A stretch of DNA of 64,000 bases from NCBI GenBank assembly GCA_023653115.1, contig JAMNXO010000001.1:310001-374000 (forward strand), in the 5' to 3' direction. The notes beneath the pieces were generated by a model. It did not search any database. It was given only the letters and a program-made list of their open reading frames with translations, and was not told the DNA's origin. The position numbers and the translations under genes are program-made. This document shows, piece after piece, positions 57,118 to 61,237 of this stretch (its first letter is position 1; each line of letters begins with the position of its first letter). Origin of the DNA: Erythrobacter sp. (lineage in GTDB: Bacteria > Pseudomonadota > Alphaproteobacteria > Sphingomonadales > Sphingomonadaceae).

Positions 57118-57663
57118 GTGAGCCCACCGCGCGACGAACTCTGGCACCGCATTGCGGCCCATGACATCGGGCCTTCCGACGCATCGCTGAGTTTTGCCGC
57201 CCGGCTTGCCCGCGAGAACCGCTGGAGCCATGCCCATGCCGAGGCGGTGATCGGCGAGTATAAACGCTTCTGCTACCTCGCACTGACCGCCGGCCACGAG
57301 GTCACCCCGTCCGACGCGGTCGATCAGGCATGGCACCTGCATCTTACCTACAGCCGCGACTACTGGCAGAGCTTTTGCCCGGACGTGCTGCGCGCCGATA
57401 TGCACCACGGCCCGACCAAGGGCGGGGCGGCCGAGCGCGACCGGTTCTACCACCAATATGCCGCCACGCTCGCCGCCTACGAGGCTGCCTTTGGCTCCGC
57501 GCCCCCCGCCGCTATCTGGCCGGCTGCACAGCGCCGCTTTTCTGTCGATCCAAAAGCAGTGCGTGTTAACTTTTCCGATGGTATCTTCCTGTCACGCCGG
57601 GTCGCGCTGGCGCTGGGTCTGATCTTCCTCATGGTAGGCTGGCTCGCGGGAAGGATTGTGTGA
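57118..57663 (+). CDS. Glycine-rich-domain protein (GRDP)-like with C-terminal TM
   Basis: 181 aa; EVTPSDAVDQAWHLHLTYSRDYWQSFCPDVLRADMHHGPTKGG...; C-terminal TM VALALGLIFLMVGWLAGRIV; GTG start 3 nt after the rimM stop. Confidence 0.7.
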   Translation: MSPPRDELWHRIAAHDIGPSDASLSFAARLARENRWSHAHAEAVIGEYKRFCYLALTAGHEVTPSDAVDQAWHLHLTYSRDYWQSFCPDVLRADMHHGPTKGGAAERDRFYHQYAATLAAYEAAFGSAPPAAIWPAAQRRFSVDPKAVRVNFSDGIFLSRRVALALGLIFLMVGWLAGRIV

Positions 57664-58487
57664 TGGAGCTGTTCTCGTCCTGGACGGGCAGCGATTTCTT
57701 GCAGTTTTACATCATGCTGCTGGTGCTGAGTGCCGTGGCAGGGTGGTGGATACCTGCGCAACTTCGCCCCGCCGGCCGCGCGAGCGAATCGCTCGATGCC
57801 GAGGATCTGGCGATGCTCGGCGGCGGGCGCGAGCGGTTTGCCGATTCGCTGCTGGCCGATCTGTTCGTGCGCGGCGGGCTGGCGGCGGTGAGCGCAGGCA
57901 AGTTAGAAGTGGTGCAGCCGGGCCTTCCGGCCAGTCCGGCAGGCAAGGCGCTGCTGGCTTACGGTGCGCCGATTTCGGCCAGCGCGGCGAGCAAGGCGGT
58001 GGGCGTCCATGCCGAGCGGGTCGCCGCACGGCTGCGTCGCAGCGGGCTCTTGCTGCGTCCCGAGGAACTCACCCAATTGCGCTGGCTTTCGATTGCGCCG
58101 TTCTGCGCGCTGCTGCTGCTCGGCCTTTACCGCCAGCGCGCCGGCAGCGCCGAGGGCGAGGCGACCGGCTTTCTGGTGATCCTGATGGTGCTGACGGCGG
58201 GGCTGGCGCTGCTGCGCTTCTTCAAGGTCGATCACCGCACCCGCGCGGGGATTGCGGCGGTGCAGGGCTTTCGGGCGCGGGCCGCACGCCTCTCTGCCGC
58301 ACCGCGTCCCGAAGAGGTGGCAACCGCTGTGGCGCTGTTCGGCACCGGCGTGCTGGTCGGCACCCCGTGGGAGCCGGTCCACGCGATGCGGCACCAGAGC
58401 GGAGGCGGGGACGGCGGCAGCAGCGACAGCAGCAGCGATGGCGGCAGTGACGGCGGCGGCGGTGGCTGCGGTGGTTGCGGGGGCTGA
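57660..58487 (+). CDS. TIGR04222 domain-containing membrane protein
   Basis: 275 aa; LDAEDLAMLGGGRERFADSLLADLFVRGGLAAV...; C-terminal GGDGGSSDSSSDGGSDGGGGGCGGCGG. Confidence 0.78.
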   Translation: MMELFSSWTGSDFLQFYIMLLVLSAVAGWWIPAQLRPAGRASESLDAEDLAMLGGGRERFADSLLADLFVRGGLAAVSAGKLEVVQPGLPASPAGKALLAYGAPISASAASKAVGVHAERVAARLRRSGLLLRPEELTQLRWLSIAPFCALLLLGLYRQRAGSAEGEATGFLVILMVLTAGLALLRFFKVDHRTRAGIAAVQGFRARAARLSAAPRPEEVATAVALFGTGVLVGTPWEPVHAMRHQSGGGDGGSSDSSSDGGSDGGGGGCGGCGG

Positions 58488-58509: not shown

Positions 58510-59499
58510 ATGACGAAGCTTCCTGTCGCCATTGTCCAAGCCGCGCCGATCCCGCTCGATTTCCAAGCGGGGATCGACAAGGCTGTGCGTCTGGCGCGTG
58601 AAGCGATCGACAGCGGCGCGCGGGTGGTGGCGTTCGGCGAGACCTTTCTGGGCGGCTATCCGCTGTGGCTCGATGAAGCCCCCGGCGCGGCCTTGTGGGA
58701 CCATCCCGGCACCGAGGCGCTCCATGCAATCATGCTGGAGCAAGCCGTGGTCGCCAATGACGAGCGGCTGCTGCCCTTGCAGGAACTCGCCGATGCGAGC
58801 GGTGCGTCAATCAGCATCGGCGCGCATGAGCGGGTGCGCCGCAGCCTCGTCAACAACCAGCTGACCTTCCGCCCCGGCCTGCCGGTACTCGATCACCGCA
58901 AGCTCGTGCCGACCCATGGCGAGCGCCTGATCTGGGCGCGGGGCGATGGCTCGACGCTGGGGGTGCATCAGGCCGAGTGGGGCCGGCTCGGCACGCTGAT
59001 CTGCTGGGAGCACTGGATGCCGCTCGCACGCGCGGCGATGCACAATCTGGGCGAGGATGTGCACGTGGCGGCATGGCCGACGGTGCGTGAGAGCCACCAG
59101 ATCGCCTCGCGCCATTACGCGATGGAGGGCCGGTGCTTTGTGCTCGCTGCAGGGCTGGTGCAGGTGAAGGATGATCTGCTCGATGGGCTGGAGCGGGTCG
59201 CCCGCGCTCAAGTAGCCGAAGGCGGTAGCGCAACAGAGACTCGCGGCGCAGCGCGTGAGTTGCTGGAGGCGATCCCCGGCGAAGTGCTAAACCGTGGCGG
59301 CTCGCTGATCGCCGCACCCAATGCCCGCGTGATCGCGCAGGCGGGCGAGGGCGAGGAGACGCTCTTCGCCGACTTGGACCTTGACGAAATCGCGGCGGGG
59401 CTGACCACCCTCGATACTGACGGGCATTATGGGCGACCTGATGTGTTCGAGCTGACAGTTGACACGCGGGCGAAGGATGGGGTGAATTGGACTATGTAG
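58510..59499 (+). CDS. Carbon-nitrogen hydrolase (nitrilase family)
   Basis: 329 aa; VVAFGETFLGGYPLWLDEAPGAALWDHPGTEALH...GRLGTLICWEHWMPLARAAMHNLGEDVHVAAWPT nitrilase catalytic E-K-C arrangement. Confidence 0.92.
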   Translation: MTKLPVAIVQAAPIPLDFQAGIDKAVRLAREAIDSGARVVAFGETFLGGYPLWLDEAPGAALWDHPGTEALHAIMLEQAVVANDERLLPLQELADASGASISIGAHERVRRSLVNNQLTFRPGLPVLDHRKLVPTHGERLIWARGDGSTLGVHQAEWGRLGTLICWEHWMPLARAAMHNLGEDVHVAAWPTVRESHQIASRHYAMEGRCFVLAAGLVQVKDDLLDGLERVARAQVAEGGSATETRGAARELLEAIPGEVLNRGGSLIAAPNARVIAQAGEGEETLFADLDLDEIAAGLTTLDTDGHYGRPDVFELTVDTRAKDGVNWTM

Positions 59500-59816
59500 C
59501 CGCATTCGTCGTCGCGCTTGGTATCACGCTTGCCGTCTCGATCCTTGGCGTCATCTTAGCGGTTTTCTGCTGGGCAGCGCTTCGTGGCAGTTCATTCGTA
59601 AGCGACGAGATTGCTCTTATCAAAGCGTGTACAGGACTGTTTCCAACGGGTCTGACATTAGCCGCGCTCGTAGCCCTTTTTCACATATTGAGCGAAGAGA
59701 CCCGTGATACGTATAGTGCCGGCATATCTATCGTGGTGCTCACCGTTGTGCTGGTGTTGAGTATTGGATGGCCTGCTAGCTACCTTGTGGCGCGCCGATT
59801 GACACTTCGCCGCTAG
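59487..59816 (+). CDS. Small hypothetical membrane protein (about 3 TM)
   Basis: 109 aa; MDYVAAFVVALGITLAVSILGVILAVFCWAALRG...; TTG start overlapping the nitrilase 3' end. Confidence 0.55.
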   Translation: MDYVAAFVVALGITLAVSILGVILAVFCWAALRGSSFVSDEIALIKACTGLFPTGLTLAALVALFHILSEETRDTYSAGISIVVLTVVLVLSIGWPASYLVARRLTLRR

Positions 59817-59823
59817 GATACGC

Positions 59824-59880
59824 ATGACCTTCGTCGCCACCATCCTTACGCTCTATCCCGAGATGTTCCCCGGGCCCCTA
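59824..59880 (+). pseudogene. Truncated 5' fragment of trmD (19 codons)
   Basis: ATGACCTTCGTCGCCACCATCCTTACGCTCTATCCCGAGATGTTCCCCGGGCCCCTA encodes [19 protein letters not shown], nearly identical to the trmD N-terminus at 60494 ([19 protein letters not shown]). Confidence 0.85.
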
Positions 59881-59884
59881 GCGC

Positions 59885-60427
59885 TCACTTGGCGCCCCAG
59901 GTGACCGAGTAGGACATGTCTTCACGATAGGCCATCGGCCCGGCACCGTGGTAGAAGCGGTAGAGGCCGGTCTTGGGGATCGTGACTTCCAGCCGCCCGC
60001 TGGTCTTGCCGCTGATAGTATGCATCTCGGGTGTGTGATCGAGCGCGGGCCACGGACGGATATCGATGAAGACCGTGCCGTCGAAGCCCTTCTTGCTGTC
60101 CACCTCGTAGTCGATGAAAGCCTTCTGCCCTTCGAACAGCACCATGGTGCGCGGGCCGGCGGGGATATAGGTCGCGGCCATGCCGTCGCGGCTGTAGTGG
60201 TAGTAGCCGAGATAGGGGAACAAGCCCGAGATGTAGGCCAGCAGCCATGCTACCAGCGGGACGATCACGATCCAGATGCTGAAGCGTATCAACGTGCCGC
60301 GGTATTCGGGGCCGATGCCGCCTTCGTCATCCTCGCCATTGGGCGCGGGGCCGAACAACAGGCCGGCAGCCCAGTCGGACGGACCCGTTTGCCGCTGATT
60401 ATGCATGTCGAACAGACCCATAGTCAT
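59885..60427 (-). CDS. Hypothetical single-TM protein with extracytoplasmic beta-type domain
   Basis: 180 aa; TM FSIWIVIVPLVAWLLAYISGLFPYLGYYH; opposite orientation to the surrounding operon. Confidence 0.7.
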   Translation of the reverse strand: MTMGLFDMHNQRQTGPSDWAAGLLFGPAPNGEDDEGGIGPEYRGTLIRFSIWIVIVPLVAWLLAYISGLFPYLGYYHYSRDGMAATYIPAGPRTMVLFEGQKAFIDYEVDSKKGFDGTVFIDIRPWPALDHTPEMHTISGKTSGRLEVTIPKTGLYRFYHGAGPMAYREDMSYSVTWGAK

Positions 60428-60493
60428 CGCTCTATCCGCACAAGCTTAGCAAATGTTTGACATTGAACATCCTGCGGACAAAGCGCTGTGGAC

Positions 60494-61237
60494 ATGACCT
60501 TCGCCGCCACCATCCTCACACTCTATCCGGAGATGTTCCCCGGGCCGCTCGGGCACTCGCTCGCGGGCCGCGCCATGGCCGATGCCAAGTGGGCTTGCGA
60601 GACGGTGCAGATCCGCGACTTTGCCGAGGACAAACACCGCACCGTCGATGATACGCCCGCAGGCGGCGGAGCGGGGATGGTGCTCAAATGCGATGTGCTG
60701 GCGCGGGCTTTGGATAGCGCACCTGCTGCTGGCCGCCCCATCCTCGCCATGACTCCGCGTGGCAGGCCCATCACCCAAGAGCGCATCCGCGAACTCGCAA
60801 GCGGCCCCGGCGTCATCATCCTGTGCGGCCGGTTCGAAGGCTTTGATGAACGCCTGTTCGAAGCCCGGCCAGAGATCGAGCAGGTCAGCCTCGCCGACAT
60901 TGTGCTTTCCGGCGGCGAGATGGCGGCGCTCACCATCCTTGACGCTTGCATTCGGCTGCTTCCCGGCGTAATGGGCGCGCCTTCCAGCGGAACCGAGGAA
61001 AGCTTCGAGACGGGGCTCCTTGAATATCCGCACTATACCCGACCTCAGGAATGGGAAGGGCGCACGATCCCCGAAGTGCTGCGATCGGGGGATCATGCGA
61101 AGATCGCGGCGTGGCGAAAGCTGCAAAGCGAGAACGACACACGGTTACGCAGGCCGGACTTGTGGGAGCGCTATGAGGGCGCTCGGGTCCAGCCTGCCTC
61201 TGGCGCGCGGCGAAAAGACAAGGAACCGGACCAGTGA
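60494..61237 (+). CDS. trmD: tRNA (guanine-N1)-methyltransferase TrmD
   Basis: [73 protein letters not shown]. Confidence 0.97.

Follow-up and report, generated by a model that had tools for sequence, protein, structure and literature searches.

A duplicated trmD start in Erythrobacter as the probable scar of additive insertion into a slot of variable gene content

The minimal mobile elements of Neisseria, by the definition given in PMC3082526, consist of different whole genes between two conserved border genes, vary among strains and are moved by homologous exchange. The T6SS immunity-gene arrays of Vibrio cholerae grow by serial horizontal additions that keep the older genes and shift the ends of border genes, and homology-facilitated illegitimate recombination (HFIR) has been proposed for them (PMC5361080). 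In Helicobacter pylori, insertion with long target duplication leaves a long direct repeat of a resident gene flanking the insert (Nobusato et al. 2000, as reported in PMC1643837), and in E. coli experiments, a circularised fragment and a single crossover produced partial duplications of the homologous gene, 109–950 bp long in the sequenced clones (PMC3240628). By analogy, the phenomenon described here seems to be known in kind, with a slot between a nitrilase gene and trmD that would work like a minimal mobile element and scars that resemble insertions with long target duplication. A literature search for gene-transfer hotspots at trmD or rimM returned nothing relevant, and neither this locus nor its scar series was found described in the collection of papers searched.

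The stretch of DNA analysed (hereafter, the window) comprises 64,000 nucleotides of a metagenome-assembled genome (MAG) of Erythrobacter sp. that is 86% complete and in 65 contigs, and the window junction is known from this one MAG, as assembled. The left border of the slot is a nitrilase-family gene (58510–59499, forward strand; Pfam CN_hydrolase, E 2.5e-37), which is Nit6803-like by NCBIfam, under that model's cut-off. It is preceded on the same strand by a conserved hypothetical ORF, glyr (57118–57663), whose gene order is kept in 52 genomes, and by a TIGR04222 membrane protein gene (57660–58487; NCBIfam E 8.5e-38). The first slot ORF, mem109 (59487–59816, forward strand, 109 aa), starts with TTG and overlaps the end of the nitrilase gene. 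It encodes a predicted helical membrane protein, modelled by AF2 as three long helices (pLDDT 74), and is akin to slot ORFs of four relatives, G087, G008, G066 and G079 (phmmer 2e-6 to 7e-4). The right border is the intact trmD (60494–61237, forward strand), over the cut-offs of NCBIfam PRK00026/TIGR00088. A promoter and terminator scan of the locus gave nothing convincing, and PADLOC returned no defence-system match for the window genes.

Between these borders, 7 nt past the mem109 stop, lies a forward-strand stub (59824–59880) that, on direct reading, repeats trmD codons 1–19, the second copy being at 60494–60550. The initial annotation had reported this duplication and six differences, and all of them were confirmed exactly: of the 57 sites, 6 differ between the copies, GTC/GCC being the nonsynonymous change and the other five being synonymous changes at third positions. 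The local alignment of stub and trmD scored 43.5 against a maximum of 14 among 428 shuffled or reverse-complement controls, and in a whole-genome search for trmD the stub came up as a second match (E 3.9e-5). A fresh tandem copy of trmD was rejected, given the 6 of 57 differing nucleotides and the different flanks. Translation gives a 26-codon open frame (59824–59904, forward strand) that begins at the stub, reads 19 trmD-like residues and then ALTWRPR, and closes at 59902–59904, within the next gene. That gene, rev180 (59885–60427, reverse strand, 180 codons), is the reverse-oriented ORF that had been placed beside the stub end; it was found as described, with its stop codon 4 nt past the stub. 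The stub in the window is most likely inert.

The relatives compared here belong to Erythrobacter in the GTDB sense, with one genome per species. Searching 114 genus genomes, we found trmD in 109, and the rimM-trmD region was readable in 106, which together with the window gives 107 loci. The nitrilase gene is the final conserved gene ahead of trmD in 85 of the 107, window included, so that the slot has two conserved border genes like those of the Neisseria minimal mobile elements. Between nitrilase and trmD, the median gap is 370 nt, with extremes of 3 and 1590 nt; an insert is missing from 12 loci, 53 have gaps of 200–520 nt and 18 exceed 520 nt. Usually, the slot holds one small ORF, mostly for a membrane protein with two to four predicted helices. 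The 82 mechanically picked slot ORFs fell into 41 BLAST families, 23 of them singletons, matching the different whole genes between borders in Neisseria; a few picks are surely antisense or spurious, such as the window's 'proximal' pick, which is antisense to rev180. On the trmD-rplS tree, the slot family labels took 35 changes against a shuffled mean of 35.8, so slot content is without phylogenetic signal, as expected under exchange. Homologous exchange, described for the Neisseria elements, may operate here too, as this tree mismatch would suggest, in a comparison between species rather than among strains. Treating the slot membrane proteins as a single family was abandoned: mem109 matches several of them (1e-3 to 1e-6), but iterating the profile led to the drift that is usual with membrane proteins. 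Outside Erythrobacter, G206 and G486, from two different genera of the same family, have the slot with a stub, and a second trmD-start match is rare across the remaining genera sampled.

Two further observations concern slot ORFs. In G109, a distant mem109 relative (E 9e-4) lies in the gap between the TIGR04222 and nitrilase genes, and there may thus be a second slot one gene upstream. In G076, G007, G017 and G004, the slot ORFs end in SVFD or NVFD right before the trmD start; this C-terminus is common to slot proteins of different BLAST families, as if crossovers fell there.

Stubs like that of the window form a series. The trmD head (110 nt) of each genome was aligned to its own upstream 1 kb, and 13 of 107 genomes scored at least 17, with 12 of the 13 matches beginning at the ATG; the same scan with the heads of nitrilase, TIGR04222, glyr and rimM as controls found a stub in 0 of 279. 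Short stubs of 14–18 nt were found in G101 and in six genomes with a REP-like palindrome after the stub, and a weak one in G063. About 20 of the 107 genomes carry a stub in total, including Erythrobacter sp. NAP1 (G024), with G098 on both the score and the palindrome lists. The shortest stubs measure 14 nt and the longest about 100 nt, the downstream sequence is different each time, and some stubs, in G096, G099 and G102, have decayed or lie out of frame. A stub is present in 13 of the 18 slots longer than 520 nt versus 1 to 4 of the 65 shorter ones (Fisher 2e-10 to 3e-8), an enrichment indicating that stubs accompany stacked inserts (two or three). The inserts are flanked by direct repeats of part of the resident gene, as in the H. 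pylori case, and these measure 57 nt in the window and 80–102 nt in G108, G029 and G073. The six palindromes (arms with CTTCGACAAGCTCAGG), found in G003, G091, G104, G093, G098 and G102, lie about 40–140 nt upstream of trmD, or about 560–680 nt in G102, and may themselves insert at the trmD start.

The junctions vary in what follows the trmD head. In G087, G108, G098 and G096, the last nitrilase codons follow it directly or within a few tens of bases, and the G098 locus has this nitrilase tail only, without a full nitrilase. In NAP1, a cassette fragment carries a trmD-like start fused to it, and next come a nitrilase tail and, after that, rev180. The joins of the trmD head with the nitrilase tail and with rev180 are non-homologous. 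In G004/G076, G079, G101 and G103, the short stub shares its reading frame with the cassette ORF that follows and, judging from these reading frames, the captured trmD start is probably the start of the next slot gene. G065 has one cassette; in G101, the first cassette is 92% identical to it and is joined by another that opens with trmD-like codons, which makes them a candidate before/after pair of cassette addition. At about 9 of the 12 judged junctions with a forward gene, the stub is in frame with a nitrilase tail or the following cassette (binomial p 0.004). The set and rules were chosen after inspection and some assignments are tentative, notably that of G073; we treat this bias as a lead and do not count it among the results. 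The insert of G029 lies behind an 81-nt stub and codes for a pair of MazE-fold antitoxin and PIN-domain toxin, the toxin stop overlapping the trmD start; it is comparable with the restriction-modification inserts of H. pylori (PMC1643837). In the rimM-trmD gap of the same genome, a gene that by eye is a LysR-like regulator replaces the nitrilase gene and has an ATGA overlap with the stub.

The gene next to the stub in the window is rare. We detected rev180 in 4 of 114 genus genomes, every copy on the reverse strand and upstream of trmD; a distantly related gene in G339, a genome of another genus, is located away from trmD. The other three copies are 37% identical to that of the window. A spacer of 66–67 nt separates rev180 from trmD in the window (60428–60493, 66 nt), NAP1 and G102, and all three global alignments beat all 500 shuffles, with the window-NAP1 pair just above the null (11.3 vs a maximum of 11.2). 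With the same combination of rev180, spacer and trmD start present in NAP1 and G102, the three behave as a unit. The AF2 model of rev180 has an N-terminal transmembrane helix and a beta-sandwich domain (mean pLDDT 67), and its best Foldseek neighbours include GOLD domains at modest scores; from this model, our guess is a membrane-anchored binding domain. A phage or plasmid origin was considered and dropped, with no match among the phages, plasmids and viral contigs searched.

Considering these data, we regard the stub as a scar that additive insertion left in the variable slot between the nitrilase gene and trmD, with a probability of about 0.8. The window joins two arrangements in series, nitrilase-mem109-trmD start and reverse rev180-66-nt spacer-trmD, and the same serial structure with different inserts is found at the slot in many relatives. 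DNA of a related strain would arrive by transformation, gene transfer agent or otherwise and integrate via homology at trmD or the nitrilase gene on one side, and the other side would be closed by an illegitimate join, or the fragment would be circularised before a single crossover. Either route would leave the recipient genes intact, add the cassette and duplicate the short trmD stretch between crossover and join, and the layout in which nitrilase, cassette A and a truncated trmD precede cassette B and trmD would be expected from additive integration of a fragment with B and a trmD start. The sequence alone appears to fit both an HFIR-type join and circle/single crossover. In the described routes, one homologous side with an illegitimate join, or a ligated circle, gives additive insertion, and the loci here would have arisen in a similar way. 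Classic HFIR is expected to delete recipient DNA by the join, and here that feature is absent; additive products with a duplicated trmD start favour the circle/single-crossover route or an HFIR variant. A circle with a single crossover would also explain the lack of loss and the recurrent joins of trmD head and nitrilase tail, although the duplications here (14–100 nt) are shorter than those of the E. coli circle-route clones (PMC3240628). Several observations limit this account. The window junction comes from a single MAG. The nearest genomes are about 85–90% identical at the locus, too far to place the breakpoint, and the identity profile has no clear step within trmD. Of the two trmD starts, the intact one looks typical of the clade and the stub a little less so. 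To the left of rev180, NAP1 has a nitrilase tail and not a stub, so there may have been several routes of entry for rev180.

Serial stacking of cassettes with border-gene scars between them distinguishes this slot from the Neisseria elements. It is like the V. cholerae arrays in its serial additions with older genes kept, but no secretion system or effector-immunity pair was recognised at the slot, and the most-scarred border gene is an essential tRNA methyltransferase, scarred at its 5' end. Unlike the H. pylori case, a single site is reused for many kinds of insert, and the duplication is always from the trmD start.

The layout of two nitrilase-cassette-trmD units in a row would also be expected from a local tandem duplication of cassette and trmD head in one genome, with one cassette later replaced or diverged, and in G076 the cassettes are indeed similar over the last ~13 codons before the trmD start. 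Within a genome, though, cassettes A and B are unrelated or remote by BLAST, rev180 is another kind of gene on the opposite strand, and of the nitrilase gene the G098 locus contains the tail alone, so we consider this origin distinctly unlikely. Slightly less unlikely, but still improbable, is that the stub is kept as a leader with a regulatory role or as a translational relay, in which its start codon and short reading frame would couple the translation of the neighbours. The in-frame junctions counted above would agree with this, as would stub starts that often overlap the preceding stop as ATGA; against it, the next gene in the window is on the opposite strand, so nothing would be relayed, the stubs have no common length or sequence besides trmD, some of them are decayed or out of frame, and the counting rules were fixed after data inspection. 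The initial annotation had also asked whether the stub is a conserved leader ORF, and it is not: most relatives lack it, and in the others its length and flanks vary.

A site-specific mobile element that targets and restores the trmD 5' end, to which the initial annotation had likened the scar, would account for duplications that begin at the trmD ATG and for the palindrome between the 14–18-nt stub and trmD in six genomes. Integrative elements in gene 5' ends have an integrase and a fixed attachment core; in the loci read, there is no integrase or transposase ORF between stub and trmD, the stub ends vary from about 14 to 100 nt and the insert is different each time. The failure to find rev180 among the phages, plasmids and viral contigs searched speaks against it too, and a sharp left edge at the ATG is also expected where a stub simply abuts the preceding gene. 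The likeness does not hold up in these data, and we judge such an element very unlikely. Least probable of all, to the point of being nearly dismissed, is an artefact of MAG assembly or binning. The MAG is fragmented and the identical junction occurs in no close relative, but the same stub type is found in genomes of one to few contigs, including NAP1 and isolates, stub and trmD differ at six sites, and the unit of rev180, spacer and trmD is common to other assemblies.

An additive insertion scar agrees with the initial annotation's view of an insertion or recombination scar, in that most relatives have neither stub nor rev180; its treatment of the event as isolated did not hold, as the same type of scar recurs at what is a recurrent slot. 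Its argument that mostly synonymous divergence implies a separately evolving functional trmD is weak. Drift after insertion and ordinary allele differences suffice, and of the six differing sites, the rare state is in the stub at four and in the intact gene at one. The proposal that incoming DNA carried the reverse gene together with a replacement trmD 5' end stands in part: rev180, spacer and trmD start do recur together, but either of the two ends may be the foreign one. The intact trmD start is at most 1 nt from several clade members, and none of them comes closer than 4 nt to the stub.

What began as one odd duplication has become a set of over ten different scars, all located at the same position of a core ribosomal/tRNA operon. 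The series opens additive recombination to study in natural genomes, including the join positions, the decay of duplicated ends and how an essential gene stays whole, and it points to hypervariable small membrane proteins whose exchange extends over Erythrobacter and no fewer than two further genera of its family. More speculatively, and in our view doubtfully, the trmD start could be a trap at a standing gene-accretion site, where small membrane-protein genes are stacked, in-frame captures or mini-frames of trmD head and nitrilase tail are kept via coupled translation, and the membrane proteins diversify under selection for novelty, like immunity genes.

Two observations were made outside the slot. 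Over the glyr and TIGR04222 genes of the window (57118–58487), G038 is clearly the nearest genome, with 85–86% identity versus at most 80% for the next, and the neighbouring stretches differ, which suggests that this stretch is a separate recombination tract. In about 25 genus genomes (e.g. at L098, L119 and L147), trmD contains a variable in-frame insert near codon 80, and in some of them it encodes PELVEG or STSSGRT, apparently derived from the same palindromic repeat that follows the 14–18-nt stubs.
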